Of a stretch of 64,000 nucleotides of DNA, positions 4,633 through 64,000 are shown piece after piece. This stretch comes from Agrocybe praecox (lineage: Eukaryota > Basidiomycota > Agaricomycetes > Agaricales > Agrocybaceae), in assembly GCA_964017145.1 (NCBI GenBank), contig OZ024852.1, positions 2,667,945-2,731,944 on the forward strand, written 5' to 3'. Position numbers and translations under genes: made by a program. Numbering within the stretch: position 1 is the stretch's first letter; the number at the start of each line of letters is the position of its first letter. The notes beneath the pieces were generated by a model. It saw only the letters and a program-made list of their open reading frames with translations, did no database searches and was not told the DNA's origin.

Positions 4633-6980
4633 ATGGCGGGATACAACAGGACTCGCTCTGTGGAGGAGATTCTCGAAAATACTCAGTCATTACCACCAAC
4701 ATTCACCGTTCATCTTCATTCTGAACACTGGGTTTTGAACAATGGATCGAAGTTTCTATATCACAACCCGATTGCCGTACGTCTGTCTAAGTAATTTTGT
4801 GTATCCTTTGCTCAATCTACCGAAACTTTAGTCGCTATTGGATGACATTCGTGCACATCGCATACCTGTGGATTTTTTGGAGTTGTTTGATTCGGCGCGG
4901 GTGCCGTTCTATGAAGGTTAGTACTTCGATGGGAAGGGGTCTCGTATTATCTGAGCACACGAGCTTAACAATATCTTCTAGGATGCATGATTGTGGAACT
5001 TCTAGATTATCGTCCTCTGAAAAGCCATGAACCAGCTTTGAAAAACCCACAGAAGACGCGTGTTGTTCTTCATCCCAATTCTGAGACTTTATGGGCAGAT
5101 ATATGCACATTGAATCAGAAGGCTGGTGGTAAATGGACGGATATGGATGCTCTTGAAGTTGAGGCAAAGATTTTGGTATAGCCTTTTATGTCCGTTGAGG
5201 TGTCAATCGTCATTTATTTCTTTGCTAGCTCGCCACTTCTCCGCCGTTGTGCCTTGACCCAGACCCTCATCTGACGCGCATTGTCAACCAGGTAGTTAGG
5301 GTATCGACGCCTACTACGCCTCTGTCTCTTAAACGGAAAGCATCGGCCTTGGAACCTGAGGAAAATGGACCCGAGAAGGCAAAGCGAGAACGTCTCCTTA
5401 CGTTCATGGCACCAAGAGAAGCCAGACATGGACCAACGTAAGTTGTTTTCATTACCACAATATATCATAGGACTTAAAAAACATTATTTTTTCAGCTATT
5501 CTTTGTTAGACGCTTTTACCAGAAAAAGGACGACCGCTGATCCGAATCAAACAGGATCAGCAGTTGGCACAGGCCCTTGGAATTCATCCCAACCTGCACA
5601 AGTGACACAGTCCACTTCGCCTGCAGCAGTGCCACAGACACCGACAGCTGGATCCCAAGCTCTTTCACCCACAGAAACAGCAGACAGCAAATCGTCAAGC
5701 GTAAGGAAGAATGCCACTCCCCAAATCTCTGGGTATAATCCGGCCTTTACGCGCACAGATGGCTCTCATACGCCGATTCCTCCCCAACCTACCCACCAAT
5801 TTGTAAATCAGCATCCGCCGACTGCACTCAATTCGTCGCCTGCGATACAACCTCAAGCTTATAACAGCTTTAAGGAAGCACAAGAAGCTGCAAGCAACAT
5901 CTCGCCAGTAGGTGCACAANNNNNNNNNNNNNNNNNNNNNNNNNNNNNNNNNNNNNNNNNNNNNNNNNNNNNNNNNNNNNNNNNNNNNNNNNNNNNNNNN
6001 NNNNNNNNNNNNNNNNNNNNNNNNNNNNNNNNNNNNNNNNNNNNNNNNNNNNNNNNNNNNNNNNNNNNNNNNNNNNNNNNNNNNNNNNNNNNNNNNNNNN
6101 NNNNNNNNNNNNNNNNNNNATGCAGAACCAAGCAGCTCTACGGCGGCAGACACCTCTCCAGCAGGTTCAACAACAGGTTCAACATGCTCAACAGCAACAA
6201 GCTATGAATGCGGCATCTCCGCAGGCCCAGCAATTGCAGATACAAGCCGCTCAGGCCAAGGCACAATTCCAGGTGTTGGCGGCACAAGCTCAAGCTGCCC
6301 AGCAGCAGCAGCAGCAGCAACAACAACAACAACAACAAGTTTCCCCGCAGAATCCAGCGGCTATGCCTCAGCAACAGCAGCAACTATCTAACCAGCCATC
6401 TCAACAACAAATGGCCCAATATCAGCAAATATACAACACGTACCAACAACAAGGGTTCAATATGTGGCCCCGCATGCAGGCAGGTGCAAATCTCACGCAA
6501 CAACAGGTCCAGCAGGTGCAACAACAGATGTTGCAGCAGCAGCAGCAGCGTATGTTACAGCAACAACAACAACAACAAAATGGTGGCTCTTCGGTACAAC
6601 CTCAGGGGATGATGCCCAATATGACGCAACAGCAGCATTTGGAACGCCAACAGTTAATAAGGATGAACATCCTCCGTGCCCAGCAAGCTGCTCACGCCGG
6701 TTTACATCACCAGCAACAACAAGCTTCCGTAGCAGCGGCGGGGGTTTCTGGAGAACAAGGTGGGATGACGCTGGGAAATGGGCTACAAAATAGCGCTCAG
6801 CTTTCGCAAGCAGCCATGATGGGGAAAATACTTCCACAAGGACTCTCTCAGGCTCATGCACAACAGGCCCACGCTCAAGCTCAGCTGCTGCAAGCACAGA
6901 TGATGGGGAAAGGAAAGATGATGTTGCCCAAGAAGGTTCCACCCCCGATGGCTGCCAAACCAGGTGGACCTCAGCGATGA
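4633..6980 (+). CDS. SPT20: SAGA complex subunit Spt20, interrupted by an assembly gap
   Basis: Spt20 is a structural subunit of the SAGA histone acetyltransferase coactivator in the nucleus. The ATG at 4633 starts MAGYNRTRSVEEILEN. The Spt20 domain follows over about 180 residues: FTVHLHSEHWVLNNGSKFLY, then after the first intron SLLDDIRAHRIPVDFLELFD, then CMIVELLDYRP, TRVVLHPNSETLWADI and LDPDPHLTRIVNQV. Introns begin at 4779, 4918, 5176 and 5438. The C-terminal half is Ser/Pro/Thr- and then Gln-rich (CAG/CAA runs at 6299-6337 and 6530-6580), ending QR-TGA at 6978-6980. A 200 N gap (5920-6119) falls in this half and the flanking frames differ, so an intron lies in the gap or its length is arbitrary. 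The PolyQ tail is typical of the family. Confidence 0.9.
5920..6119. other. Assembly gap (200 N)
   Basis: Exactly 200 undetermined bases inside SPT20. The round length suggests a placeholder, not a measured distance. It sits just before the CAG/CAA-rich stretch, where assemblers often fail. Confidence 0.95.
6299..6341 (+). repeat. CAG/CAA microsatellite
   Basis: An uninterrupted run of CAG then CAA codons in SPT20 encodes a glutamine tract. Similar, more broken tracts follow to about 6750. Confidence 0.8.
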
Positions 6981-16480: not shown

Positions 16481-17345
16481 ATGTCTCATTCACATACCCA
16501 TGCTCCTGGCGAGGAACATTCACACTCTCATGGGCCACCCCAATCTCCAGGGATTCCTCAGATGGATCCTACTCTGCAAGCCATGATTGACCAGGACTTC
16601 GTGTCCAGTCCACTTGTGCTTTCTACGGACGGCGCAACAGCTTTGTGCAAAAAGCATAAACAGGAAAAATGTGATGACTGCAACGTGGACTTTGTCAACA
16701 CCAACCGTCTTTCACGCCTCTTAGTTGCCAACCCAAACTTGCTTTGTCCACCACCTAGTAATGTCATCTCGCAGAACCTCTCGAAAGCCGTTCAGACCAC
16801 GAAAGACGAAGGCAATGTGCGTTCTTCGTTTCTTGTATACGTAGACTACTCAATATAACACTACTTCAGACCCTATTCAAATCAGGACAGGCTCAATTGG
16901 CTATCGCCCGATACACCACTGCTGCTGCTTTAGCCACACAGCGTCCACCTTGGGAAGCAAACCAGGTCATGCGCGAGGAACTTTCCGCCACTATTTCCAA
17001 CCGCTCGGCCGCCTACTTTGATCTACAAGATTATATATCTGCTCTTGTTGATGCAGAGACCGTAATTTCAATCCGCCGAAATTGGAGTAAAGGACATTTC
17101 CGCAAAGCTAAAGCACTCCTTGGTCTTCACCGTTTCCGTGAAGCTGCAGACGCTGTCCGCCTTGGTCTGGACTTTGAACCAACAAACAATGTCCGTTTTT
17201 ATCCTGATGTTTTCAATGATTGACTCTGACTTGTATGTATTAGGAACTGATCAACTTCCTTGCCGACATTGAAAAGGTCGAGAAGAGGATTGAAGAAAAG
17301 AGAATTGAGGGAAGACAAAACAAGACCGTCGAGGCTTCAGCATGA
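16481..17345 (+). CDS. Sec72-like TPR protein of the ER translocon
   Basis: Sec72 is a TPR subunit of the Sec63 complex for post-translational ER import. The ATG at 16481 opens a His-rich leader (MSHSHTHAPGEEHSHSHG). The conserved block follows: CKKHKQEKCDDC, DFVNTNRLSRLL, then CPPP. After an intron (about 16813-16868) come TPR helices: TLFKSGQAQLAIARYTTAA, MREELSATISNRSAAYFDL and KGHFRKAKALLGLHRFREAA. A second intron (17191-17244, GTCCGT donor) leads to the last exon, ELINFLADIEKVEKRIEEKR, ending TGA at 17345. About 255 residues. The Sec72 name is by block similarity; a different small TPR protein is possible. Its 3' end is duplicated at 22.44 kb (see the repeat entries). Confidence 0.75.
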
Positions 17346-17610
17346 TACCTTTCTTGACTATTATTCGGATTCTCGTGTATTAACAGCATTTCATTAACCA
17401 CCTTTACATGGGCGATGGTGCCTACGACATAGTGTTAAGGACTGAGATAAGAATTGTGTTTCTGATTAGATTCCATCAAACATGGATTTCGACATTGGGC
17501 TTGGCTCTTCGTCTTTCGTGGGCATGGGTGGAATTGGGTATTCCTTGGGATTCACACGAGAGAGCTTGCTAATGAGGTTATCCTTTTCTTTTTGTCAGTG
17601 AACTGTATCT
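17178..17610 (+). repeat. Direct repeat arm A (Sec72-like tail plus dehydrogenase tail)
   Basis: 433 bp closely similar to 22444-22860. It covers the last Sec72-like intron and exon and, on the opposite strand, the last exon of the convergent short-chain dehydrogenase. The similarity starts abruptly at ACCAACAAACAATGT and ends at AACTGTATCT on both copies. Confidence 0.85.
17468..17610 (-). pseudogene. Relic of short-chain dehydrogenase last exon
   Basis: Reading the minus strand, this matches the intact exon at 22694-22860 ([20 protein letters not shown], then [14 protein letters not shown]). The relic has a lost base after ACTGACAA that shifts the frame, and about 18 bases encoding VKDIVE are missing. 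The rest of the dehydrogenase gene is absent here. Confidence 0.8.
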
Positions 17611-17917
17611 AAAGGCTGGACGAAAAAACGAAGGAGGAAGAACCTAAAAGGCCGGAGAAACGCTCGTTTGTGGCCTAATCCTCTTCTCAGAGAGATTTTG
17701 AGTTAATTTGATCCCTTCCAATGTGTTCTGATGATTCCACATTTTAGCAATGCTCTCTATCCACTGTGCAAACCTGACCATCCATACCATGTATAGATGA
17801 CGAATATTAGTTTGCCTCCCTACTAGACGTGCCAGAAGAGCGAACGGCAAGTCCCGATGGCTTTTGGTTCCGCGAAAACCCCGAAAACTGCACCTTGCTG
17901 ACTTCCACAACATACTC
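17611..17917. other. Intergenic spacer
   Basis: It runs from the end of repeat arm A to the BTB gene start. I see no gene or clear signal. Confidence 0.4.
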
Positions 17918-19109
17918 ATGTCTAACATCAGATCCAAACGAGCTCGTACATCAAAATCCGGACAGTCAAGCGTGCCAAATAAAAAGGCCAAAAAATCGAC
18001 GGCTACACGATCGACGACGACGGTGACATATCCAAACGGCTCAGAACCAAAAAAGGACTCTCGCTTCTGGCTGGAAGATGGCAATGTAGTTCTTCGCGCA
18101 GAAGATTCTTTGTTTCGTGTCCATCGGTCTATACTTTCTCTCAATTCCCAAGTGTTCAAAGACATGTTTGCCATGCCTCAACCCGTCACTCTTCCACCAG
18201 AAGAGTCTGTAGACGGGTGTCCCCTGGTATTTCTCTCGGACAAATCTGCAGACATCGAAGTCATGCTGTCTAATTTCTACGAAATGGACAGGTTAGTGTT
18301 CTTTGATGCGCTCTGGTTCAGTTCCATTTTCTAATTGAGATACTTATGTTTATGCTCTGACTGATATAAGGAGGCTTCAGGAAACGAGCAGAGTGTCGAT
18401 GGAAAGCTTGTTCGCAATTCTCCGCCTGGGAAAAAAGTATGAAATTCATTACTTGTGGGAGATAGGCCTTGGATACATGGGCGCAGAATTTCCGCGTCGC
18501 CTATCTGGTTTCCAGTTAAATAGAGGAATCCCCTCCAGAACCGGAATTGATTATGGCTCAAAACCCAAGAATGACGCGATTATTTCCATCGTAAATCTCG
18601 CTCATGAACTGGGTATACAAAGCATTTTACCGGCAGCGTATTTTTTGCTTACTTCAAATGGAATAGTAATTCTACTCCTTTGTCCATATCTATCAACTTC
18701 TTGGCTGACATCGTTTGTAAACCAGGAAGCTATGCTGAATGCCACAAAAGGGGACGTGCTTCTTCATCCTGGTGCTATGGATTGTTGCCTAATTGGCTAC
18801 GGAAAAATCGTAGCAGCAACTGTCCGCGAGTTTCGGGGCTTGAATGACCGCACAAACGTAGTCCCTGCAAGCGATTGCAAGAGCCGCGACGATTGCCTCC
18901 TACTCTATTCCAAACATACACCACTTGCCCTGCATTTCTCTGATGGAATGAAATGCTTTGACAATGAATACTACAATAAAACCGGTCTATGTGACAAATG
19001 TCACCGTCAGTATGGGATATCTTATAACGCCATTCAAAGCCAAATTTGGGAACAACTTCCTACTTTGTTCGGCCTCCCAGGCTGGGAAGACCTCAAAGAC
19101 GAAATTTAA
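17918..19109 (+). CDS. BTB/POZ domain protein (agaric type)
   Basis: BTB domains mediate dimerisation and cullin-3 adaptor binding; the role of this expanded agaric family is unknown. The ATG at 17918 gives a basic N-terminus (MSNIRSKRARTSKSG, KKAKKS; NLS-like). The BTB core then reads FWLEDGNVVLRAEDSLFRVH, RSILSLNSQVFKDMFAMPQP and VDGCPLVFLSDKSADIEVML. An intron at about 18291-18371 leads to VSMESLFAILRLGKKYEIHY, a BACK-like helix. The C-terminal half holds cysteines (CCLIGYGK, CKSRDDC, CDKCH) and ends DLKDEI-TAA. A 60 nt segment at 18666-18725 has GT..AG ends and a CTGAC branch-like site and is open in frame, so it may be an intron or retained. Length is about 340-360 residues, normal for the family. 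The gene lies inside the block bracketed by the duplicated gene tails. Confidence 0.8.
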
Positions 19110-19739
19110 CATTGATTCAATGGCAGCGGATCAAATCCTTTCTTAACAACAACCTTCATCCATCACTGGTACTTCCTATTCTGTGGTGTATAATGATCTA
19201 GCCTGATGATCACTCCTGTTTTTGTAAATTACCTTCAAATTCCCCCCATAATTATATTCATTTATTTTCCAGACGGTATGCCTTCGCGATTCCCGTATAC
19301 CTACTGACTAGTTCAATGAGGATCGGCAGGGGAACTCGAACGACAGACAGACAGACAGCTACCGACGGGTCTCTCTGAAGACATATTATTGCCATATCTC
19401 GGAGTTTCCAGAGATGAATTATGTGGCTTGTAGGAACGTTTCTCGATTCTTGGCCAAAACGACAATTCGACTCAATCTGTGCACATTCTTGATTCCGATT
19501 CAGGTTTGTTCAGACACAAGCAAGGATCGTCGGCGCCGTTAGCCACCAGTCATAATAAATGTAAAACAATGTTGACTGTTGACATTCAGGATCCCTACAT
19601 GTAAATGAAAGAAATGAATTTGAAAAGTCGAAATCCCACAGTCGTGCCGCTCCATCAATATCGCTAGTCAAATATGTCGGTCCCAGCTGGGTTCGAATCA
19701 TAGATTGTCATTAACTACGATTTTTTTTAAACCACAAAA
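19110..19739. other. Intergenic, convergent
   Basis: It lies between the 3' ends of the BTB gene (plus) and the PEBP-like gene (minus). I see no gene. Confidence 0.4.
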
Positions 19740-20610
19740 TCAAGCGCTAGCAGGCGGGTCTGGACCGACCAACATGAACGTGCCTCCGATGGGTTGCCCA
19801 AGGCCAACTGCTCCTGCGAACTGGCTGATGTTGAACGAAATGATTGAACTTGAGGAGTTGACGAGGGTTTGCTTATTGAACGCTTTCGATTGTTCGAAGA
19901 GTAAGAAAACATATCTGAAAAACAAGCAGAATATAATAAACAGGGGTTATAGCCACACAAAAAACTCATTTGAAATCCGTCAGAGTCGGGTGCGTTGACT
20001 TACCGATGAGGATCAGAACCAGCACGGGGCATCGGCTGTTGGTATTCAGTCACAGATGGAGTATGATTGGTGAGATGGGCGTGGTCTCGTTGTTCGCGTA
20101 CGAAGTTCCCACCAAGGAAGTGCCGAACTTGTGCAACTGTTCGAATTTGTGGAGTGGGTACGTCAAGGTCCACCGCTGCTACCACGAAAGGCCCATTTCC
20201 GACAGGTCCGGCGACACCGAATGTAGGAGGCCCAACGGTGGCTAACATATATCATAGTAAGTCAGCTAGCCAAAGTAAATCGGTATCGACAAGCCGATTT
20301 CCTGATACTCGCCATTCCTTGGAAGATGTATTCCTGCGTGAAGTGTGATAGGGCGGCCAGTCGGTTGTGGAAATGTGACTTCCAACAAGGCCTTGGGGTT
20401 AAATGACAAACTCAAATTTCCAGGAACCTTGGTAAAACAAAACAAAAAAAGTCAGCCACACAAATACTTGCAAATTATCGCAAAGTAAAGTATAGAGGAA
20501 ACGCTCACCAGAGCCTCGTCAAATGTTCTCTTGACAGTCTCGAGGCTAATATCTTGGGCAGCAGCAAGCGTCGTAAGGGCAACGACAAAGCAACCAGAAA
20601 GGAAACGCAT
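19740..20610 (-). CDS. Secreted PEBP-like (phosphatidylethanolamine-binding) protein
   Basis: PEBP proteins bind phospholipids or proteases; the role of the secreted fungal members is unclear. The ATG at 20610 opens a signal peptide (MRFLSGCFVVALTTLAAAQ). Exon 2 gives VPGNLSLSFNPKALLEVTFP and ITLHAGIHLPRN. Exon 3 carries the PEBP core: GPPTFGVAGP, FVVAAVDLDVPTPQIRTVAQ (DPDAPT-like motif as DLDVPT), VRHFLGGNF and PAGSDPHR-like PRAGSDPHR. The last exon gives YVFLLFEQSKAF, SFNISQFA and QPIGGTFMLVGPDPPASA, with a stop at 19740-19742. The intron at 20242-20312 uses a GC donor (G/GCGAGT), which restores the frame as RNATVGPPTF. About 215 residues. Confidence 0.85.
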
Positions 20611-20670
20611 GATTGTAAGTAGTGGTTTGAAAAAGGCTTTTTTTTTACAGGAAAAGTGGGGTCTAGGACC

Positions 20671-20678
20671 CTTTTATA
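20671..20678 (-). promoter_or_regulatory. TATA box of the PEBP-like gene
   Basis: TATAAAAG on the minus strand lies 61-68 bases upstream of the start codon at 20610. It is next to a GGGTC/GACCC inverted repeat. The spacing fits a core promoter of a strongly regulated secreted-protein gene. Confidence 0.55.
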
Positions 20679-22443
20679 TGTTCCTGATAGGCTGACCAAA
20701 AATTGCCCTCTCGTCATCCTGCCTCTTTTATTGGACTTAGAGACAGGATCTAAGCAGCTAGTAAGCAAAGATTCGAAAGAAACACCAGAACAACCATTAC
20801 CCGGTATTTTGCAGAGATGAAATCATCCTGTGCGAAAAATGAGGAAAAAGAAAATGTCAATGACGCGACGGCGTCGAACCAGATTGGTCACTGTTGCTTG
20901 CGCTTGTACGGTCCTGCTAGATCTTGCAACGCTTGAGTCTTGCAAATCAAAAGTTTTAACAAGGCAGTCTACATCATTCACGAGCATATTAGTAGTAGTG
21001 TTCAATAAAATATGTATATGCTTACGAGCGTTGATGGTGGTCGTAGTTTACTTTTGTTCTAAAGTTTTTTCAAATACACTGCGATCAACATATGCGCATA
21101 CGTTTTTCATCTCTGAAAAGGTCTATGTGTATCACTTTTGGCAACCAGCTTCAGTTTCGCCTTGGTTTCTGCAGCAATTTGGAGACAACTAGAAAGATGG
21201 ATGTCAGGGCCCAAGCATTATCAGCACAAAGATTACTGATGCATCATCATACAGTTTATTGAGGCAGCCAGTGCAGGGACGAGGGACCTATATGCGGTTT
21301 CAAATGAGTTATCAAGCTGTCAAACCCTTGGTGTCGTTTTCGATTCAGCTCCAGCACGGTTGGAAGGGTGGAATTCCGACTATCCGTTGAAAATATGAGT
21401 GATTTACATCAGTACCGATCAAGCCGAGACGATAGTAGTAGGATGTGCACCCCCGGAGAAGTTGCGTGGTATAGTGTACTGCGTTTTGGCGGTCATATCA
21501 GTTTCGCCCCACTTCTCCAAAGATTTGAGATACAGGCGCTGCGAGGACCAGCATCAGATATACGTCATTTTTGGACAGTATACTCCGGCAACATTTACAC
21601 AATGTATATATGAGGGTTTTCGTGCTGATCTTCCCGAGCTAAAGGTGGTCCAGAGCCTAGAAAAGTCAAGTTCTCTATGAACAGCGTGCACTGTAAATCA
21701 GGAAGGCAGTGTCGATGCTAGATGCTGAGATTGTATTCATCAGATCCTGTAAGATGGTTCATTTGGCAGACAGCATGGTTCATGAAGTGCTGGGTGAGAC
21801 GGTAGACCTTCCAATTCCTTAACAAGAGCAGATAGGCACCAAATTGAAAGGACGATATCGTCTCACATCCGCACCGAAACCGCGAGTTCTTTTGCCCAAG
21901 AACAGACATGACAACGCCATCGATTCTGAGTATCAGGATAGAAAATGCACAGTTCTAAGTTGCTGGTCAACGTTCAACGTTCAACGTTCAACAATGGCGA
22001 TGTGATGGTACTTGATCAAAGGTAGATCTAATGACCTTGCCGAGCTTGACCCGCCATTGTCGCCGAGCCCGACGCCGAAGTGCCTAACGCCGAGTGGACC
22101 GTCGACAGATGCCTCATTGGACTCACATTGCACGATAACTGCGCAACAAACTAGGCACGTCGCCGCCGCCTACACTACACAATGGCTCAAACGGCGTTGG
22201 TGGGGTGTCTGGGGATGCTCTCAGCTTCCCAATAGTGAACGAATGGATTAGGTTCAAGTCTCCCACTTACAACTCGCTCTCCGTCGAGGATCTGCCGTCG
22301 CCATTTCCTCTACCTTTCACTTCCTCGCACCCCCACACAGCTTGTCCAGTGGTGCACCCGCACTTGGCGGTACGCTCAGCGCTGTTGGCGGTGTTGTACC
22401 CAGTGGGAGTGGAAGACGACGACCCAAAGGCGGAGGTGGCCAG
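20679..22443. other. Gene-poor part of the bracketed block
   Basis: Upstream of the PEBP-like gene. No coding potential is recognisable. A small tandem AACGTTC triplet lies at about 21970-21991. The right end abuts repeat arm B. Confidence 0.4.
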
Positions 22444-22860
22444 ACCAACAAACAATGTACGTTTTTATCCTGATGTTTTCAATGATTGACTTTGACTTGT
22501 GATTTATTAGGAACTGATTAACTTCCTTGCCGACATTTTCACGAGAAGAGGAAAAACTAAGACCGTCGAGGATTCAGTATGATACCTATTATTCGGATTC
22601 TCATGTACTAACAGCATTTTATTGACCACCTTTACATGGGCGATGGTGCCTACGACATAGTGTTATCGACTGAGATAAGGATTGTGTTTCTAATTATATT
22701 CCATCAAACATGGATTTCGACAATGGGCTTGGGTCTTCGTCTTGAGTCGCGGGCATGGGTGGAATTAGGTATTCCTCGACGATATCCTTCACCTTGGGAT
22801 CCACACGAGAGAGCTCGCTAATGAGGTTATCCTTTGTCTTATTGTCAGTGAACTGTATCT
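22444..22860 (+). repeat. Direct repeat arm B (Sec72-like tail plus dehydrogenase tail)
   Basis: 417 bp closely similar to 17178-17610. The Sec72-like last exon here still reads ELINFLADI but lacks the coiled-coil coding part present in arm A and continues TRRGKTKTVEDSV-TGA. There is no upstream Sec72 coding sequence, so this half is a relic. The minus-strand half is the functional last exon of the dehydrogenase. Confidence 0.85.
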
Positions 22861-24050
22861 GCGCTGCAGGAAAGCCAACTTACCCACAACACCTCTTGTG
22901 CATATTTACTCTCCTCACTAATCACATAATCGCTCGGCTCAACCACATTCTCCAAGGAAATATATGTTCCCTTGAGATCATTGTCTTTGTCTTTGCCACC
23001 TACGGCCGCCCACACTAGCTGTCTGCTTCCTTGCTCAGCCGTGCGCGCCAATGCTTTCTCCATAAACCAGTCGAACCAAGCCATTGCACCTTTGTAGGTT
23101 GCTCGCAGGCCAGAATAGCAATATCCTGGATTAACTGTGTCGATTGTGATGTACCTTTCCCGAAGGTGTTCATTGAACGCTCGCACGAATAAAACGTTCA
23201 TCACTGTTATTCGTTGTATATGTCTGTGTCTCAACATAAAATGTGGAAACTATACATTTTGTTTCCGAATACCTATTCCTGATGTTGTTCGCTTGTTACT
23301 TGAGAAAACATTGGATGGATTTGTTGGCTTACTTCTGATCAAAATAACCCCCGCCCCCATAGAACTTAAGGGGACTCGCGGCGTTGATAACTTGCTTGTC
23401 AATCTTCGCCCAGTAGTGAACTTCACTTGAGACGACCACAAGTCTAGGAATGGTTTCAAACTTCTTTGCGGTCTCCATCATACGGGGAAGCAAGAGAATT
23501 GCGAGCAACGAAGTGGATAGATGGTTAACCTGAAAGCTTGTGGGATAATTAGAATTCATCCAGGATCTAAAGAAAATTAAACCGAACAAACCAAAGTTCC
23601 CATCCGTTTTTTGTGACCTCGTATTTCTCGGGAGGCAATATTCCAGCACTCTCGACGAGGATGTCCAACCTTTCACAATTGTTCTCGACTCGTTGCCCGA
23701 AGGCTTTTACTGATTCAAAGTCTGATAAGTCGAGGAGCCAAAGCTCGGCAGCGTCAAATCCAGTTGCCTCCTTCAACCCTTCAGTCATCGAAGTGATACA
23801 TTAGCGTATTTTTCTAGGAAGCCAGATGTATGGAAATTTTACGTTTCAATGCGGCCTCTCCTCGTTCCTGGCTTCTGCAGGCGAGGATGAGCCTCCCGGG
23901 TTTCATGCGTGCACAGTGTTTGGCTGCCTCCTGTCCGATTCCATTATTGGCGCCGGTGACGATGACGGTTTTACCGTGCAAATCGCTTTCGAACACAGGT
24001 GGTACTGAATTGCGCTGTTGGCGAATAAATTGGGCGAGCGTGAGCTGCAT
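22694..24050 (-). CDS. Short-chain dehydrogenase/reductase (retinol dehydrogenase/WWOX-like)
   Basis: NAD(P)-dependent oxidoreductase, substrate unknown. The ATG at 24050 gives [20 protein letters not shown]. The Rossmann motif TGANNGIG follows, then an intron and [15 protein letters not shown]. The structural NNAG motif is replaced by ESAG ([10 protein letters not shown]). Then come [26 protein letters not shown] (catalytic Ser region), and, after splicing a small exon near 23260, [15 protein letters not shown], containing the YxxxK catalytic pair. [12 protein letters not shown] follows, and the last exon gives [20 protein letters not shown], ending MFDGI-TAA at 22694-22696. About six exons. 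The gene is convergent with a relic Sec72-like tail; the true Sec72-like gene is 5.3 kb away. Confidence 0.8.
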
Positions 24051-26792
24051 GGTAGGAAGGAGTTTTGGGTAGTTTCGATATGAAATTATCAGTTTTCAAG
24101 CATATCCATGTCTGAATTTATGTTTTACCATTGTTTCCAACCTGAAATGTGCACGTCATTGTGTTGCAGTAAAGTCGAGGCTGTCTCGAGTCCGTGTCAT
24201 TGCTCAAGTCATTGAAATTACCCTAACGGAATTTTGTATTTATGTTTGTTGGGACAAAAATAAATAACGAGAAGGTGGTTCAAATGGTCGAATCCAGATT
24301 GAGGAGTCGAAAAGGGGTAACTCATCCGAGACGAACATGGTGATCGTAGGTCTGCGCGGGAGGGGCCACTGGTAGCGACGAAAGGAGCCTGAGGACGTTC
24401 CGAGCACTGAGAAGTCGTCGTATCCAGAGAATAGTAGGACAACGTACGTGGTCACCGGCGTAGGCTGAAACCCTTCCGTTCCCTTTTCCTTCTCTGACCC
24501 GATCCTTGAGTCGCCCCATAAAGCAAGGAAAGTTATTCAACGCTTTGAAGTCGGTCGTCGATCAGTGCCAGCACGCAAACCACAGTCACAGGTGCCAACA
24601 CCCCAACGGGGAGCATCTGGTCATGGAGGCCAGGACGATGTAGCCCTGTATCGATACTATCTTTCATCCCCATTGCCGCCTTGCTCATGCCTGCAACCTC
24701 CTCCAGTCCTGTCACAGCTTGATTATTACTATCGAGAGACAAGGGCTATCCAACTTTGAAAGTACGAAATGAGGCCTCCAGTGAAAGTCGGACATGAGCT
24801 GGTCTGAGCAACGAAGACAACCTCTGAGGATGTCTGAGCAAGGTTGTGTTTAGCTGCGCTTTTCAGTCCAGCGCAGAATCCAGTGGTTTGGAAAAGATTC
24901 TGAGTTTGAAATTCGACACCTCGTCGACTTGTTGACATCATCAAAGAGCAAATCTGGGGGAAATGCTCTTCGTTTCTCTCTCGTCGTTTTCTGACTTACC
25001 AGTGACCTACGACGGGTCCGTGCACCCAATTCGCCTAGCTCTTATATGACGCGACGAATTTCGAAGGACCGAGAAGTTTCTTTCTTCCCTCCCCCCCATC
25101 ATCTCGCCTGCCGCCATCCGCCATCGCGCACACCGATCTCCATTCTGACCAGGTATGTATCTATCAACATGTCTAAACCGCTTCTGATGATCCCGAAGTG
25201 GGATATATGCGTCTTTTTTGGATGGCGGGGTGTTTTCTTCGGTGAGTGCCAGTTGTTTCCGTACCTCATTCCAAGATGGCTGATGCTTGTGCCATTAGTA
25301 CATCAGAAACCGTCTGCAGCTTCGCATTAAGTATTTGAATTTTGAGGTGCGATTCTTATTCACATTATGAGTGTCATCGGCTCAATATTATTTCGCGCGC
25401 AACGGCGTCATCGTCAATGTTTACCCTACCAAAATCTCGTCTTTCGAATACCTAAGGACCACGGCGTGCCAACCATCCCAGCCCCAGCCACCCTTCTTCG
25501 TCGTCCCCTCTTGCACTTGTTCTCGGATTTGGGAGGAGTTCGTGAGTGGAAATGGGTTGGAAGGTTGGACACAGGGAGGAAGATTGGTCGCGCAGCCGTC
25601 TGTTCAAGGCGTGGAGAAGCGTAGATGGGCACGGACGACCACAGATAATTCCTTTATTAGCACACGAGCTTTTAATTAGTAAAAACCTGCAATTGTACAG
25701 ATATTCTCAGACCACCCCATATAGAGTCAGACGAGAACAGAAAAATCTGCAATATCTGTAAAGCAGGAAATCTCTCTCTCGCAGGTTACTCAGAAAACGC
25801 TCAGCAAAACTCCTTTGAAGGGAAAAAACCTGTAGTTGGCTGTGTTTAGCCGCGTTCTCGGCTCAGGTCGGATATTCTCAGACCAGCTCATGTCCGACTT
25901 TCACTGGGAATGAGGGTTCGTGGGGTGACTTAGCAAGTCAACAGAAAAACATAGGTGAGCGAAATGCAGGCTGCACTCCGTGGGAATGTCCCGATAGACG
26001 GCACAACAATGCCGTGCCCACGTACCCTGTATTTTCATTGTTCTACGACGCTTGAGGATCACGGAGTTTCTCATTTCCACTGGATTTTTGGTTTTAACAA
26101 TGATTCTTTACTATCAATGTTGGATTAAGGACGGAGTGACATTGTCAGCACTACCTCCCTCATCTTCTCTCCCGCTCATCAAAGTTTCAGGGTGCAATTG
26201 GCATGGACCTAGTTGAATTGGCACCTTTGGGAGGAAAGACATTAATTGTAAAATACTCGCGAGCACTTAGGCTGAAAACGCGGATGGAAGATCATGCCAA
26301 GAGACAGGTCTCCGTTGTTTTTGTTGCTAGTTTTTTCTTATCGGCTAATTTCGCAAGCCTGGCCACGCAAGGTGCCAAAGATCGGAGGTAAGGTACGTCA
26401 TGTCAACGAGAAACATTCAACGGCCATGATCCACAGCTAAAGAGGATTTAAAATTAAAATTAAAAATGGCGGCTGGCCACGAAGTCGAGAGCCTATGGTG
26501 CTTCAACAAAGAATTTCATCCGAAACGACTTAAATTTGAAAGCTAAATAAAGGGCATCCCTTGCAGGACCTCCTCTCGATAAATCAAATTTGGCCTATTG
26601 TCCAGTAATACAAGTTAAACAAGGACCGACGATGCAATCTACGCAATGGGAATATAAAGTAATGATCGGATGTATAGTTGGGACCAGCCTTACCTCAGAC
26701 CGAGAACGGTTTATGCTATCTGTCCCATGGAATTAAAGGTCATGAAATCAAGAACTGCAAGCACAATCTACAACAAATAACTTTAGTACGAA
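24051..26792. other. 2.7 kb region without a supported gene
   Basis: It contains the 31 bp inverted repeat pair (24778-24808 and 25877-25907) and a word GATATTCTCAGACCA occurring twice (about 25700 and 25871). Short open frames at 25.0-25.7 kb have intron-like junctions but no recognisable family. Confidence 0.4.
24778..25907. mobile_element. Candidate non-autonomous element with 31 bp perfect terminal inverted repeats
   Basis: The sequence CCAGTGAAAGTCGGACATGA at 24778 begins a 31-base block that is repeated as an exact reverse complement at 25877-25907. The repeats begin CAGTG, as in hAT-type ends. AATGAGG lies just outside both ends but not at the same offset (3 bp and 1 bp away), so a target duplication is not proven. 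No transposase is visible inside. Confidence 0.5.
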
Positions 26793-28275: not shown

Positions 28276-29343
28276 TGTTCCTGCCAAGTAAACAATAGTA
28301 TGTTTTCGGGAATAGTGATCGCGAAAATTAGCTTAAGATTAGTCGGGAATCACTAAAATTCTCTCGGTAACGCGGAAAAGTGCTGGGAAAGGTCAAATTT
28401 ATTTCCGAGAAACCTAAAAACGTCTTGGGAATGGTCAAAAATGATGTCGAGAACGCTACATGTTTCAGGGAATGTCATTTTTATTTTTATTAGGCTTAAT
28501 GTACAGTCTCAGGAAGTGTGTATTAATGTCGGGGAAACGCCCTAATATGTACAGGATTAAGAAAATATGAAGTTGTTTCAGGAAATAATACTTCCCCTGA
28601 TTCCCTGCCATACAGCCTGAGAATTGACTGAAAACCAGTTCTACATGGGTAAAGACAGCCTCGACACGGAAGATTTCCCTCACGAATACATGGACTCTAC
28701 GAGGCCAACAGATATATCAGCGACTACGACGAGAATTATCTGAATATACATGGTATGAAGATTAATGAAAAGTTTGGGCGTCATTTAAATATGATTTGAT
28801 CGAAACCCTAGTGGAATGCCCGATATCTGAGTGAGGGAGGCTATGCTAGAAAAATTGCCTTGCATGCAACACTACTTACGAGATGATTGTTCTGGGTCTT
28901 GAATAACACGGAAAATATGTACAATCTCGGTAACGAGTCATGTATAGCAAGAAATATCAATGACTGTATACCCGTCCAAGACGTAACCCCCTTTTATTTG
29001 TTTCTGGGATGCATGGTATCATGCCAGGAATCCAACCCAAGCCCGAAGAAAGCGACGAACTGGCTGCTTCTCCTTAATCTATTAATAGCAAATCAACTGT
29101 GCGAGTCCTCGGCGCTTAATGCTATACGACCATGTGGGCGTCCTCTCATCTGATCACCGTTCTATGTGTATTATCACTGTCAGACTGTGCTTCTCAATAC
29201 GAACTTCACCGTCGAAACATCGTTGGAGTAGTCCGATCTGCCAGCAGCGGTGGACTCTGGTGAGAATCGTTGTGTATTTCCGGTGACAGCGTGCACAGCT
29301 GATAGTCACCGGCGATATCCGTATGTACATAGTCTAATCTATG
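28276..29343. other. Intergenic, no gene seen
   Basis: AT-rich with many stops in all frames. It adjoins the left end of the transposon at 29346. Confidence 0.4.
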
Positions 29344-29345
29344 TA

Positions 29346-30196
29346 TGGTGCCACATGATTAGTCACCACATATTTTGTACAGCGGCCAATTTGGCCGGCA
29401 AAAAAAATAAAATATCTAATTTTGAATACTATTTGTAAAACAAAAACATATTTTCAACACATTTTCAGCGATAATGGGACGTCCTCGAAGGAACTGGCGC
29501 ACTGCTACAGCTGCACGAGCACGAAAATTTGTACACACAAACAAGTTAAACTTTTCCTCACCAATTGAATGCCCCGACAACTCTTATGATGACTCACAAC
29601 CGGATTTCAAGGCCCAAAAGTCACTCGTCACTGAAGTAATCGCAGCGGCGGGTCACCTCTGCATCATTTTGCCAAAATTTCACTGTGAACTCAATTTTAT
29701 TGAATACTTCTGGGGCGTGGTGAAACACTATCTTCAAGAACAATGTGATTATACCTTCACAACACTCCAAGCAAATATGCCAGTTGCACTAGCTTCGGTG
29801 AACTTGATGCTCATTCGGAAGTGGCAGAATAGGATGATGAGATGGATGGATGCGTATAAGGATGGATTGGCTGCAAAAGAAGCTCAGCTTCGAGTGCAAT
29901 CTTACAGTTCGAAGAAATATACTTCCCATCGCCGCGTTCCGGAGTGTGTTGCAGCCGCATTAGATTAGATCAGATAGTTAGATCTTCCTTATATGGATGG
30001 CTTTACATAAGCCGGCCAATCTGAACTTAGGTCGATTTTATAACTCGCTCAGTTTTGATTGTATCAAAATTCTGTTTAGATGATCAATTCGTATTGACAA
30101 ATGAAAGCTTTCATCTAAAGGAATAAGAAATTTACCCATTTTTTGGACCCCCATATCCGTTGTACAAAATATGTGGTGACTAGTCATGTGGCACCA
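29346..30196 (+). mobile_element. Internally deleted Tc1/mariner-type DDE transposon
   Basis: 851 bp with terminal inverted repeats of about 40 bp (TGGTGCCACATGATTAGTCA at the left, TGGTGCCACATGACTAGTCA read inward from the right; two mismatches). TA lies directly outside both ends (29344-29345 and 30197-30198), the target duplication of Tc1/mariner elements. The element encodes a short transposase remnant. The near-identical ends suggest a fairly recent insertion. Confidence 0.85.
29474..29968 (+). pseudogene. Truncated transposase (N- and C-terminal ends fused)
   Basis: 164 residues. The start MGRPRRNWRTATAARARK resembles the transposase N-terminus. The rest is the C-terminal catalytic end: ILPKFHCELNFIEYFWGVVK (third acidic residue of the DDE triad in the NFIE context), YTFTTLQANMPVALASVN, then IRKWQNRMMRWMDAY and KYTSHRRVPE. 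The two catalytic aspartates and the helix-turn-helix region are missing, so it cannot be active. An internal deletion keeping both ends is the simplest explanation. Confidence 0.8.
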
Positions 30197-30198
30197 TA

Positions 30199-31582
30199 CG
30201 AGCCATGAATCTAATCTACTTATTGTTTAATCTAGAGACCGTGGGCAGATTGCACTGCCACATCGTGCCAGGGTGAGCACAGTTGTATATGAGCGCCGCC
30301 GCGGAGTCAGGCCCAGAATGCATGTCGTAGGTGGGGAAGGCTGGCAAGACGAGAAGGAAAAAGTGGCGTGTATTGGTCGGATGTAATAGCACGGTTCACA
30401 CGCACCTTTTCTGCATCGCACTTGATCATGATTGATGACAGGCGCCAAACAAGGTAGCTTCGGCAGCAATATATCAGTTCTCTCCCTTAATAGCACTCGG
30501 TGTGTTCGAAATACCGAATTCCATGTGCTCTATTTATCTGGACTTGTAATCCTCATGATCTGTTATATTCCTTCTGATGTGTCACAAGTCTATGGCATAC
30601 CAAATATTTATTCATAGCCAATATCGTTTCTAATTTAGCTAAGCGCCCAGGGAAACCTGGAATTAATCTACTCTGGTCCCTTAATCAGGAATCATTCACG
30701 TTTTTGTGCCTTCACAGCTAAATAGTACAACACTCTCGTGAAGTAGGGGCGACCTATTAAAAATTTCCATAAGAACTCTGTGGCCCAGAACATCAAGACC
30801 GGTGGTACCCTTGATGGTGGACTGTGTGAAAAGGGTCGACCGCTAAAGCATCACCAATCTCAGAGCAATTTTAGGGTCCATAAAAAAAATTACATCTCAA
30901 TGTAAAACATAAGATTAGTTGACCGGAAAATATGGCAGAATTTCGGATGTCTACATTCCAACCTGTGTTCCCAGTCAAGGAATTAGTACCTGCGCTTAAT
31001 TAAGACCTTTTGTTATGGTTGCATAGCCGAATACGGGCGGTGGCAAGAGAAGCTGGCGGATTGTTGTCCCCAGTGTTGATCAGCCGCGATGGATAGAACC
31101 AGAAGACCTCACATGTTGCAGAATTGCTTTGCATAAATTTCAAGAGATTTACCTTGCGTTCCCAGATTCAACCATTGACATGGAAGGCTCTAGTGTCTCA
31201 TGTCAGACCAAACCAAGTAACTTTAACCAACACATGGAACAGTAGATGTTCATGCTTGAAGTATCAACATATGGGATTCATTGACAGTTGGCCGAAACTC
31301 CTCCGATCAACAGGTAGCGCTGGTCATTTCCCCTGCAATTCGCCACTCTTGCTCATAATCACATGTAAGATTATGAGGTGGAATGTCTTCTTTGACCCCA
31401 ATGACCCGCGACCCGGCCTTTTCAGTACAACATACTGTTCCAAAAGTACTTTCGATACTCTCAGTATCCGCACTCACATCAAATATATACAAATGTATAT
31501 AAGACTCCAAGTTCTACTGAAATCCCCCAGTCACTCAACAAATTCAATTTCTACTGCCAGTCAAACACCTCCGCCGACAGTG
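30199..31582. other. Intergenic upstream of DUF5648 copy 2
   Basis: No gene recognised. It contains the TATA box listed separately. Confidence 0.4.
31496..31503 (+). promoter_or_regulatory. TATA box of DUF5648 copy 2
   Basis: TATATAAG lies 80 bases upstream of the start codon at 31583, with CT/CA-rich leader sequence after it. The spacing is typical of strong fungal promoters. Confidence 0.55.
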
Positions 31583-37972: not shown

Positions 37973-38741
37973 ATGGCAGTTGCTGCTTTACCAAAATTCC
38001 CGTTTATAGTGGTATACACGTACTGCTGGCACAGGGTCATGAAGCCCCCCAATCCCAATGCGCCGAGAGAAGAGCTGCAGGCCACTGCAGCAGCGGATGT
38101 GATCAGCCATGCATTTTGGAGAGTGAACGGAACACTCGTGAGGATATCCTATACTATTGTTCCTCACTCTTTGGCTGACAAAAAACCACCAGTACTCCCA
38201 GGTCCTGATCTCTGTGATGGAAATCGTCAGCATCTTATCTGCGAGCGGTGTTTCCTTGTCTGGAACCCACGTGGTATCGTCGAATTTTCAAGATGGGGCA
38301 AAAAGCTTCACCTTGAACACATACTCGATGGCAGGTTTCACATTTATGGTGCTAGCGGCATTCATACGCGTAGCCTCTTTCAAAGCACTGGGCCGCTTCT
38401 TTCGTTACCAAGTCAGCATCCAGAAAGACCACCAGCTCATAGTCAGCGGTCCGTATTCCATAGTCCGACACCCAGGTTACACAGGCATCCTATTCGCCAT
38501 TATTGGATGGTTCCTTTGGAACTGGTCGGAAGGCTCATGGGTCAGGACATCGGGGATTCTGGATAATATTGTTGGGATACTTTTCATGGCTTTCCTGAGC
38601 TTGGTCGGGGTTTTTGGCATCTCACTCGTCACTCTGGGACGGATGAAATTCGAAGACGAAGCTTTGCGAAGACAGTTTGGCGAAGAATGGGATGATTGGG
38701 CAAGGAGAGTACCATACTCTGTCTTGCCAGGGATTTGGTAA
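37973..38741 (+). CDS. Isoprenylcysteine carboxyl methyltransferase (ICMT)-like protein, copy 1
   Basis: ICMT enzymes are membrane methyltransferases using S-adenosylmethionine. The ATG at 37973 gives MAVAALPKFPFIVVYTYCWH. One 55 nt intron (38138-38192) joins NGTL to YSQVLISVMEIVSIL. Membrane helices follow, then the cofactor-binding end: GPYSIVRHPGYTGIL, FLWNWSEGSWVR, and the C-terminal FGEEWDDWARRVPYSVLPGI with TAA at 38741. RHPGYTG and the Glu-rich YGEEY-like end are the family signature. About 238 residues. It is a tandem copy of the next gene. Whether it methylates prenylated proteins or another substrate is unknown. Confidence 0.8.
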
Positions 38742-38900
38742 TATAGCATTCCTCGTGTTCGCACTATCGGTACTTCTTGATACCCCTATTCGCTTCCGTT
38801 AAATATGGGCTGACGTGGTCTTCCAATTATAATTCGTTTGAATCCTGAGCACGATCCTTATACTGAATTCCATCTTCGAGTAGAGCAAAGTCTGGCACCA

Positions 38901-39667
38901 ATGTCGAGTTCAGCACTTTCCAAAATCCCGTTCATAGTCGTCTACACGTATTGCTGGCACAAGATCTTGAATCCCCCAAACCCGCATGCACCAAAAGAAG
39001 AGTTGCGAGCCACAACCACGTTTGACGTGGTCAGCCACGTATCTTGGAGAACAAATGGGACGATTGTAAGAGCGTTGCAGGCGATTGATTTTTATTAGTT
39101 TCCTGATGACAACACTAGTATACCCAGATCCTTTTTTCATTGTTGGAAATAGGGACTATTCTAGCCGCCAGTGACATCCCTGTGCCCGGCGGACAGACAT
39201 TGTTGTCAAACTTCCGGGGAGAACCAGAGAACCTTCGCCTGAACAAATACTCGACGGCAGGGTTCATACTGGCGGTCCTGGGGGCGTTTATTCGAGGAGC
39301 GACTTATAGAGCACTCGGTCCCATGTTTCGATACCAAATTAGCATCCAAAAGGAGCATAAGTTGATCGTCACTGGTCCATATTCCATCGTCAGACACCCA
39401 GGATACACTGGATTGATATTCGGAGTCACCGGATGGTTCCTCTGGAATTGGTCGGAGGCTTCGTGGGTCAGAATATCAGGAGTGTTCAACAATGTTCTTG
39501 GAATGCTTTTTATGGCTGTCTTGAGCATAGTCGGAGTCTTTGCCGTTTTGGTCGTCACTTTAGGGCGAATGAAGCACGAGGACGAGGCGTTGCACGGAGA
39601 GTTTGGAAAGCAATGGGAGGAATGGGCAAAGAGAGTGCAATACTTTGTCTTGCCATGGATATGGTAA
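38901..39667 (+). CDS. ICMT-like methyltransferase, copy 2
   Basis: The ATG at 38901 gives MSSSALSKIPFIVVYTYCWH, aligned with copy 1. The intron (39066-39118) is at the same codon position as in copy 1. Downstream are YTQILFSLLEIGTILAA, GPYSIVRHPGYTGLIFG, FLWNWSEASWVRISGVF and FGKQWEEWAKRVQYFVLPWI, with the stop at 39665-39667. The copy has the family signature intact. It probably arose by tandem duplication with copy 1; both are intact and diverged, so both may be used. Confidence 0.8.
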
Positions 39668-39857
39668 TTACATGAGGTAGTTTTATACTGGGTAGAATAG
39701 AAGATAAGCTTGTGTCGAGAAGATAGAATTACGAGCCGACTCACCATTAAGAAATGGCATGGTATTGGGATAGTTATAGATAGAAAGGACTGTGTAGGCA
39801 ATGTAGATGACAATACGACAATTGAGTAGTGGTTGATGCGAGACCTCGTATTCAGAG

Positions 39858-57530: not shown

Positions 57531-58379
57531 GAAAACCCAGTCCGCCCAAACTATTGGATAAGCAATCCCACGTTAATTTCCTGACAGAACCGCTTCTTTG
57601 GCGCGACGTGACAGAGAATCCCGTCTGAGAAGATGCGGCGTTTTTCGGCATGAGAGGCGGAATTACATATATATTCAACTCCGCTAGGCCAGATAGCCTT
57701 GCCGATTGAGCGACTGAGTCCTGATCTAGGAGGATGGGTGTTGAAATAACACACTTTCCTTATAATATGGCATTACTGTAGGTTTATAATGTCATACTTA
57801 CTGTAACAAAATACTTCCACTCGGATTTGCAACAATACATCAGTTGCGACTTAAAAAAGCGGAAAGGCGCATCCGCCGTCACGACGTCAAACGGCAGTAA
57901 AAATAAGACGTGTTAGAGCAGTGGTTGTAGTCGTTGCAACTTATAAATCTCGTGCGTCGTAGTAGCATGGCGTTCGGTTCTCGATCAAGCCATTTTTTAG
58001 TCCAACCCAAGCACTGAATTTTTCCCAACGCAACGTTGACTTGGCTTAAATTCAGTGTACAACCTATTATGTGGCAGTTAATAATACGTCAAGCACCCCA
58101 CAGAGGTCTGTTAAATTTCAGAAAATAAAACATATATTATAGCATAGCTTTTAATCGTATTCAATATATGTACCTCCGGGGCCCATAGGCTGTGAAGGGA
58201 CTTCGACAATGAAAGTTCCGCAATCCCAGGCCGTCTCGGCAGGCAAACCTTCTTAATTTCCCCCAAACCACCTTTGACGGCTTCTACAAAAATTTTGACA
58301 GTCTATGTCAATCGGCATGGCGGATCAGCTGTCAAAACGTGGGAATGCTTATCCAATAGTTTGGGCGGACTGGCCATCC
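57531..58379. mobile_element. MITE-like non-autonomous DNA transposon (849 bp)
   Basis: The ends carry inverted repeats of about 38 bp with one mismatch (AGTCCGCCCAAACTATTGGA inward from both ends). GGCATACAT flanks the element as a perfect 9 bp direct repeat (57522-57530 and 58380-58388), the size expected for Mutator-like elements. The same 9 bp word occurs again at 58391-58399, which weakens the target-duplication reading. The first eight bases of each end do not match. No transposase frame is inside. Confidence 0.7.
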
Positions 58380-62102: not shown

Positions 62103-64000
62103 TCAAGGCAGACGCGCAGACTGTGGGCCAAATTGTCGTCCACCAATGGGATGTACAGCCGAGTGTAAGACTCGTTCCTCCATCGAGCTCCGCAGCGGTA
62201 TGTGAGAAAACATTTCAGGATGGTCACGGTAATTAGGGGACGAGGCGACCGACGGTGCCGGTGAAGGCTCATCGTCGTCGAGGAATCCAGAATGGAAGCC
62301 CAACGTTTTCGCTTGAGGTGGTTCCATAGCTTGAAGATGCGCAGGTAGACTGGTCTGAAGTCCTTCATCATCGTCCCGTCTTTCGTTATGATTATGCCTA
62401 TCATTATCGTCGTCGTCGTCGTCATCCATATCAAACCTGACACTGCGCGTAGACCTTAGACCAGCACCAGCTAGGTTTTGGCCGTGCCGTTCTTCCACAG
62501 AATCCATGAGGATCTCATCCTCGCCCAAAGACGAGTAATTCTTCAATTGCTCTTGCCTACGTTTCCACATGAAGATTGCTGCGCCAATTGCAGCAATGAA
62601 GCCCGTCCCAACGAAAAATGTAAGCCATTTGTGATTAGAAGCCGTGTTGACGATTGGGCTATACCAGGAGTCAGAGTTTTGCACTTCGTCCTCCTGCGGT
62701 TTCTTCCCACTACTTGTACCCGCATCGGGTGTGGCGCCTGCGTGGGTGGGTGGAAGGTGATCTGTAGGCTTGGCATGCTGGGTCGCAGAAGTGGGATGTG
62801 GGTCATGATTAATAGGGCGAGCAGTATTGTCAGGTGGCAATGCGTTATCCACAGGAAGTTCAACAGCCTTTTTCACCTTGGAGGGATCGATTGCGCTGCC
62901 CCAGAAAGCCATATTCCATCCCAAAAATGAGCCGTTGTGACCTGATGTTTGCTTGTCAGTGAGCTTAATAGTCCACTCTCCTATGGGATTTTCACCCCTG
63001 CCATGTGTGTAATATGTCAGAAAAAATTGAACACAGAGAAAAAACGATAAACACACCAGTGTTTGATAGTCATAAATCTCCAACCAGGGAACCCAGTAGT
63101 AGCCTCATCCCACCGTCGACCACCAGCGAGCAGACTCTTGATCCCGTTCGGACTGACGAGTTCAATTATCACATCACCTCTTTTTGTGTGGCGTGCCCAA
63201 ATGCGAACATCAATATGCTCCAATGACTCCAAGTTATTTTCCTGCATCATCTCCTTCGTGACCTTCATTTTTTGCTCAACACCATGAGCCCCAATTGCAA
63301 TTCCTCCTTCGTAATCATACTTCCGATGACCCAGAGGGGTCAACTTGCCGTTGTTCAGGACCACGGTTTCAGTGTGAATCCACGCCTGTGGCTTGACGAG
63401 TTTCCAGGACTGGGCAGCTGTAACGAAAGCCCAGGCGTCCAAGGCGCCGTAACCGAACTTGTAACTGTACATTCGTCCTGCGGCGGTCTTCTCCCACTCA
63501 CCGCCTACAGGATCGACCATTTTTCCTGTTAGTACACAAAGATGTTGGATATCCCGCCATGTCAAATCTGGTCTGCAGTAAAGTCAGCTTGTCAGCTTGA
63601 AAGACATAGTACATATTGAGTGATGGTCGACTAACCGGGCTTCTAAAGCAAGAGCGAACACTCCGACAGCGTTCGGCGCAGCTGCAGAGGTTCCACCGTG
63701 ATCTTTGGCGCACTGATTCTGCCCTCTGTCTGTAGTTACCTGGAAAAGGAGCGCTTAGTACCCCAAGAAAAGGAATGAAAGAATGTAACGTACAATATAT
63801 TTACCACCACCCGAGGTGTAGGCAGCGACCATGACTGCAGAACATGATTCTGAATATGTAGACCACTTCCCCGTATGGTCAACCGCAGAGACTGTTACTG
63901 AGTAGATACTGTTCGTATACCCATCGTAATTGCACTGATCGTCAGAACCCGCTCCGTTCCCACTTGCAAATACGAAAATCGAGCCTTTGCCTTCACGTCC
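62103..64000 (-). CDS. Kexin-like protease, copy 2 (partial, N-terminus beyond window)
   Basis: The gene enters from the right edge. Visible: KGSIFVFASGNGAGSDDQCN (oxyanion Asn), CAKDHGGTSAAAPNAVGVFA (catalytic Ser), P domain from LTWRDIQHLCVLTGKM to GEWTIKLTDKQTSGHNGSFL, then a membrane helix (WLTFFVGTGFIAAIGAAIFM) and a tail with DDDDDDDND and LGFHSGFLDDDEPS. The stop lies at 62103-62105. Introns at about 63571-63634 and 63738-63795, and another near 63000. It is a tandem paralogue of copy 1 in the same orientation. The catalytic Asp and His are outside the window. Confidence 0.9.

Follow-up and report, generated by a model that had tools for sequence, protein, structure and literature searches.

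In Helicobacter pylori, a pattern in which a gene-bearing block lies between long direct copies of a target that was formerly single has been published as 'insertion with long target duplication' (Nobusato et al. 2000, via PMC1643837, PMC2869330). Here, we describe a locus of this kind in the basidiomycete Agrocybe praecox. It lies in a 64,000-nucleotide stretch of contig OZ024852.1 (C13:2667945-2731944; hereafter 'the window', whose coordinates are used unless a contig is named), where two copies of the junction (J) between a Sec72-like gene and a short-chain dehydrogenase (SDR) gene enclose a block holding a BTB/POZ gene and a PEBP gene. The assembly that was searched comprises 59.17 Mb in 347 contigs. 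The defining trait of the class was found, in that direct arms of 433 and 417 bp abut the block, and the locus is a clean fungal member of the class with its donor identified. A literature search, with most subscription papers outside its scope, found no earlier report on this locus.

The H. pylori cases came from the comparison of strains and frequently involve restriction-modification genes (PMC1643837, PMC2869330), whereas the present case occurs in a basidiomycete and its donor was identified on the same scaffold. Transposed genes in Arabidopsis are similar in that direct repeats of a genic target flank the moved gene and the donor can be found for some of them. The authors of that work favour excision as a circle followed by reinsertion through homology (PMC2869330), whereas here the donor remains and no homology to J was found there. 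Insertions in rice likewise involve duplications, tandem or ectopic, where breaks were repaired (Vaughn and Bennetzen 2014, via PMC7407515), and those with ectopic donors have been ascribed to asymmetric nicks and end joining (PMC7407515). However, they measure 10-1000 bp (PMC7407515), while the insert described here is 4.8 kb long and carries two open genes. In the staggered-break inversions of Drosophila, hundreds of bases of break-site sequence are duplicated, as in our case, but those duplicates are typically inverted and lie at two breakpoints (PMC7584159), whereas ours are direct and lie on either side of a copied segment. Breakage-replication/fusion is also comparable, in that it copies and joins staggered ends separated by a few hundred bases and thereby yields a duplication. 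Its hallmark in human cells is adjacent parallel breakpoints (PMC12807874), whereas the two target breakpoints here face one another across a single insert. In grasses, genes can move as filler DNA that is copied when breaks are repaired (PMC3445842).

The two arms, J1 and J2, lie in direct orientation 4.8 kb apart and form the strongest spaced direct pair within the window. BLAST placed them, exact to the base, where an earlier reading of the letters without database searches (hereafter the sequence-only reading) had put them, with an E-value of 4.8e-125 and 80.5% identity when gaps are counted. Without gaps, they differ at 28 of 394 sites (7.1%; 15 transitions and 13 transversions), and seven indels cover 62 columns of the alignment; the repeat finder breaks the pair into seven ungapped pieces of 85-96% identity. 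The close similarity claimed earlier thus held when the divergence was measured, and each arm does contain the last exon of the Sec72-like gene and, opposing it, that of the SDR gene. The gene models also agree with that reading in that the Sec72-like gene is complete at J1 and the SDR gene at J2. A genome-wide DNA search with J1, in which match counts are lower bounds, found J at these two places and no third.

It had further been proposed that each copy has decayed in the half it does not need, and this stands with a refinement. The SDR relic in J1, which the genome search also recovered there (C13:2685413-2685529), has last-exon gaps of 18 and 3 bases (6 and 1 codons), together with six nonsynonymous changes and one synonymous change over 36 comparable codons. 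The last exon of the Sec72 relic in J2 is a net 30 bases shorter, aligning as two or three separate gaps, and shows six nonsynonymous and three synonymous changes over 21 comparable codons. Nevertheless, both relic tails (17463-17610 and 22511-22583) are still open, the net changes in coding length (18, 3 and 30) all being multiples of three. This keeping of frame rests on few events and could be due to chance.

The genome search showed that the block (17611-22443; 4833 bases) is largely an inverted copy of C13:2640433-2646892, a segment upstream on the same scaffold whose edge is about 38 kb from J1 as scaffolded. The pieces that match this donor are 17611-17836, 19208-20700, 20663-20756, 20841-22094 and 22107-22442. 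The homology starts at 17611 and stops at 22442-22445; in other words, it begins and ends at the arm edges. In the donor, the left edge falls within a 344-aa open reading frame (ORF) and the right edge within an Sds3-like gene (Pfam Sds3, 1.1e-6), and both continue across these edges uninterrupted. In the block, the former is cut off exactly at the end of J1 and the latter exactly at the start of J2. Given that these ORFs are whole across the edges in the donor and cut in the block, the direction of copying is fixed without an outgroup. The Sds3-like fragment lacks the preceding 907 donor bases, including exons 1 and 2.

The joins share 0 bp on the left and 2 bp (AC) on the right. Searches of the block for further Sec72 remnants, and of the sequence beyond J1 for further SDR remnants, gave just 12-15-base matches with E-values of 0.04 or worse, and therefore the edges are sharp. 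J-like sequence at the donor (C13:2639000-2649000) was limited to 11-13-base matches with E-values of 0.05 or worse, and C13:2628001-2731944 held no match to J beyond the two arms. The donor sequence persists on the same scaffold, save that the BTB portion of the block has no counterpart there. The claim that a block with a BTB gene and a PEBP-like gene was inserted between the arms is strengthened by this donor and by the edge-to-edge homology. The features are listed in Table 1.

Table 1. Positions of the arms, the flanking genes and the parts of the block, in window coordinates
Feature	Position	Strand	Description
Sec72-like gene (TPR)	16481-17345	+	Coding exons 16481-16816, 16870-17190, 17244-17345; 252 aa; TPR_2 match
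Left arm J1	17178-17610		First target copy, reaching from near the end of Sec72 exon 2 into the last SDR intron; SDR last-exon relic
Cut-off tail of donor 344-aa ORF	17611-17836	+	About 20 codons and 3' flank; 83.5% to C13:2646892-2646656
BTB/POZ gene	17918-19109	+	Three exons in the splice model; open throughout
PEBP gene	19208-20843	-	209 aa, frame intact, with flanks; Pfam PBP; 19208-20700 is 90.5% to C13:2644751-2643259
Copied intergenic stretch	20841-22094		84% with gaps to C13:2642983-2641721; 119/1211 mismatches
Fragment of Sds3-like exon 3, cut at J2	22107-22443	+	80% with gaps to C13:2640813-2640433
Right arm J2	22444-22860		Second target copy; Sec72 last-exon relic; completes SDR
SDR gene	22694-24050	-	Six exons; 357-359 aa depending on last acceptor; Pfam adh_short 1e-24

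We also compared the divergence of the arms with that between the copy and the donor. Outside the PEBP gene, the copy and the donor differ by 12.4% (226 sites), 7.8% (538 sites), 9.8% (1211 sites) and 8.9% (336 sites). The pooled value, which leaves out the PEBP gene (52/849, 6.1%), the ill-aligning stretch 20611-20700 (32/90) and the short match 20663-20756, is 219/2311 (9.5%), and it does not differ significantly from that of the arms (Fisher P 0.16); homogeneity over all five segments gave P 0.15. The absence of a significant difference is weaker than equality, and on these sequence comparisons the ages of the arms and of the copy appear compatible with one event. Two living genes partly constrain the arms, which would lower the arm divergence. 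The first 66 arm bases, most of which belong to a Sec72 intron, differ at three sites, and the annotated Sec72 tail of Agrocybe pediades seems to read through an intron unlike that of J. Given that the arms nearly agree where this intron differs, the event should postdate the divergence from A. pediades, to judge from the annotated protein.

These results make it very probable that a single Sec72/SDR junction received a copy of donor DNA and was itself duplicated, whatever the path. The earlier proposal that the two genes were once tail to tail, and that an insertion duplicated their junction, holds on the internal evidence of the arms, the donor and the edges. Among the paths, replicative break repair is tentatively the likeliest and is mildly favoured, because one break suffices and the donor stays whole. 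Under this model, the ancestor would have carried the Sec72-like and SDR genes tail to tail with one common J of ~430 bp, and a break or a collapsed fork would have arisen at the SDR-side edge of J. The donor segment (now C13:2640433-2646892) would have been copied and, going by the present scaffold, placed within J in inverted orientation. A return to the target ~430 bp before the departure point would have left J on both sides, with 0 and 2 bp shared at the joins, and the donor would have kept its DNA. Afterwards, the copy may have lost pieces, ~900 bp around the Sds3 fragment among them, while the donor may have lost or exchanged its BTB gene and acquired a frameshift in its PEBP gene, and the unused gene half of each arm would have drifted. 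A single event, a replicative route and the former presence of BTB at the donor are thus what we infer.

Several observations weigh against this model. The largest unmatched part of the block is 17837-19207 (1371/4833 bases, 28%), which holds the BTB gene, and in its place the donor carries an unrelated 1.9 kb (C13:2644752-2646655). Block positions 20757-20840 are also missing from the donor and are matched by two further PEBP copies in the genome, C and D. The donor is therefore imperfect as a template at both places, and later changes must be assumed. The PEBP distances among the block, the donor and copy D (C1:4254113-4255756) are nearly equal (8.4%, 9.4% and 10.0%), so that D, at 9.4% from the block, is nearly as close to it as the donor is at 8.4%. 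The distance and relative orientation of the donor and the block depend on the scaffolding across a run of 200 N at 5920-6119, between the two. The microhomology of 0 and 2 bp at the joins comprises too few bases to indicate a pathway. Finally, we found no case of Sec72 and SDR homologues as direct neighbours among the protein records of five relatives, which speaks against a general tail-to-tail arrangement.

The relatives were compared through protein records, with 120 rows listed per search, and linkage was judged by a proxy, namely records on equally sized contigs. Among the matches listed, Sec72 and SDR homologues occur on such contigs in, for example, Hebeloma cylindrosporum, Gymnopilus junonius, Crassisporium funariophilum, Psilocybe cf. 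subviscida and Agrocybe chaxingu, and PEBP homologues are found there too in H. cylindrosporum and P. cf. subviscida. The tags of P. cf. subviscida (Sec72, 006546; SDRs, 006560 and 006570; PEBP, 006566) place Sec72 and SDR 14-24 tags apart, and those of A. chaxingu are g6214 for Sec72 and g6210 for SDR. The SDRs of these relatives are only 48-58% identical and may be non-orthologues. In A. pediades, Sec72 (P0016) and PEBP (P0244) are on contigs both sized 123,576, and the SDR (P0121) is on a contig sized 2,984,741, which probably belongs to another assembly. These records only suggest linkage of the Sec72, SDR and PEBP homologues.

Among the matches listed, A. pediades also gave by far the best one for the SDR (P0121, 75%), and its Sec72 and PEBP proteins had the highest identities (90% over 73% of the query for Sec72, 81% over 81% for PEBP). 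The leaders by E-value among the matches listed were Pholiota molesta for Sec72 and Psilocybe cubensis for PEBP. In the protein search, the Sec72-like protein was 79% identical to the P. molesta and Hebeloma homologues. The acceptor of the last SDR intron is possibly six bases further, giving ...EVLWDNLISEL..., in agreement with the A. pediades protein.

With regard to the path, the sequence-only reading had named a staggered break or unequal exchange. Both are compatible with the data, but they are inseparable from template switching. The present data do not discriminate between template switching, end capture and the joining of chromatids. Two nicks, one in each strand of J with ~430 bp between them, with the overhangs filled in and a donor fragment ligated between them, would give the same final structure as replicative repair, and near-blunt joins suit end joining. 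Breaks of this kind have been described for the rice insertions (PMC7407515) and the Drosophila inversions (PMC7584159). However, such a capture requires overhangs of ~430 nt and a free donor fragment of 5-6 kb, although the donor chromosome is whole, and no sequence feature separates it from template switching. We regard it as rather unlikely. Unequal joining of sister (or homologous) chromatids that were broken at opposite edges of J, with a copy of the donor between them, is clearly less likely again. A 'chromatid' model has been discussed for the Drosophila inversions (PMC7584159), and it would give direct copies of J without long overhangs, but two target breaks in one cell would be required in addition to a copied donor, and the locus shows no specific trace of them.

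An improbable alternative consists of two steps: a staggered-break inversion that duplicates both the donor segment and J in inverted form, followed by a flip-back through the inverted donor copies that yields J-block-J. It would account, without appeal to chance, for an inverted copy on the same scaffold, and the block and the donor are long inverted repeats that are able to recombine. However, a stagger of 5-6.5 kb and two events are required, the orientation itself hangs on the scaffolding across the N run, and the look for relics of an intermediate was confined to 104 kb. Slightly less probable still is an insertion by a circle or by homology through a J-related repeat, or the landing of the block in an older tandem duplication of J. 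Long direct repeats that match the target do occur at the moved Arabidopsis genes (PMC2869330), but neither the surroundings of the donor nor the rest of the genome yielded any J-like sequence, and in an older tandem duplication the block would have to hit the joint between the two J copies exactly.

We consider an assembly artefact, or a false joining of two haplotypes, to be the least probable of these alternatives, even though the source organism is possibly dikaryotic and the N run lies at 5920-6119. Positions 14-26 kb of the window and the 39,944 bases upstream of the window are free of N, so that the arms, the block and the donor are all without N, and the donor match stops at the arms. 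The arms are 7% apart with additional indels, and the decay is specific to each half. A second Sec72 or SDR locus was not found in the genome, where the remaining SDR matches are exons at 25-66%, and the genome search, covering the best-scoring candidates only, found no second allele-like copy or haplotig of the locus.

The following candidates were rejected: insertion of a transposon or retroelement, given that the block ends inside donor genes and the target duplication is 417-433 bp rather than short and fixed; a larger tandem duplication followed by deletions, given that the block holds no other Sec72 or SDR exon relics beyond the 12-15-base matches; circle excision with homologous reinsertion, given that no repeat common to donor and target was found in C13:2639000-2649000 beyond the 11-13-base matches; and a simple staggered-break inversion, given that the J copies are direct and 4.8 kb apart, not inverted at two breakpoints. 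No inverted pair of at least 25 bases was found at the block ends (shorter pairs were not searched).

Next, we considered the genes that the block carries. No second copy of the BTB gene at the DNA level was found in the genome search, and its nearest protein relative, at C13:2567288, is 33% identical. The ends of the 1.9 kb that the donor carries in its place match dispersed sequences on C2, C12, C8 and C13. It is plausible that BTB was present at the donor when it was copied and was later replaced there. The donor PEBP gene has lost 2 bases where exon 4 starts, which shifts its frame, and its exon 3 is shorter by 15 bases. In copy D, an additional 99 bases that contain stops interrupt exon 3. 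No flanking target duplication was found at D within C1:4250001-4260000, where the only direct pairs were two short ones (49 and 41 bases); D is thus of other origin or has lost its arms. Between the block and the donor, the PEBP nonsynonymous divergence (dN) is 0.056 and the synonymous divergence (dS) is 0.080, and between the block and D they are 0.058 and 0.130. Purifying selection on the inserted PEBP gene was rejected as a conclusion, because dN/dS says little when the donor and D are both broken, and an open frame alone is no proof of function.

A third PEBP copy, C (C13:2637017-2639951), is found next to the donor in inverted orientation, and the Sds3-like gene separates the two. Pieces of it are 75-85% identical to the donor, and its parts are permuted relative to the inserted block. 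At a distance of 25-26%, copy C is older.

We tentatively suggest that one repair event relocated the BTB gene and an open PEBP gene, of which the donor would have lost the former and now carries the latter in frameshifted form. If so, repair with long target duplication would be one way in which genes are relocated in mushrooms, and the inverted copies ~38 kb apart could flip the interval between them. The target, the donor, both edges and the polarity can be read from one genome, and the locus thereby shows gene movement and the separation of tail-to-tail neighbours without transposons, in an event that is datable. Its signature, long direct arms together with an edge-to-edge donor, is searchable across fungal genomes and bears on how frequently repair, as against transposition, moves genes.

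The window also contains other repeats. Just beyond the SDR gene, a 1130 bp element (24778-25907) has perfect terminal inverted repeats of 31 bp (24778-24808 and 25877-25907) and looks like a non-autonomous DNA transposon. Two further stretches, 29343-30199 (857 bp) and 57537-58373 (837 bp), are bounded by inverted repeats of 43 and 38 bp at 95-97%, and their ends suggest that they are possibly small DNA transposons. An adjacent direct pair at 37988-38742 and 38917-39668 (69% over 758 bases) is probably a tandem gene duplication. A weaker spaced direct pair, 59486-60596 and 62878-64000 (63-71%), has ~2.3 kb between its members and reaches the end of the window.

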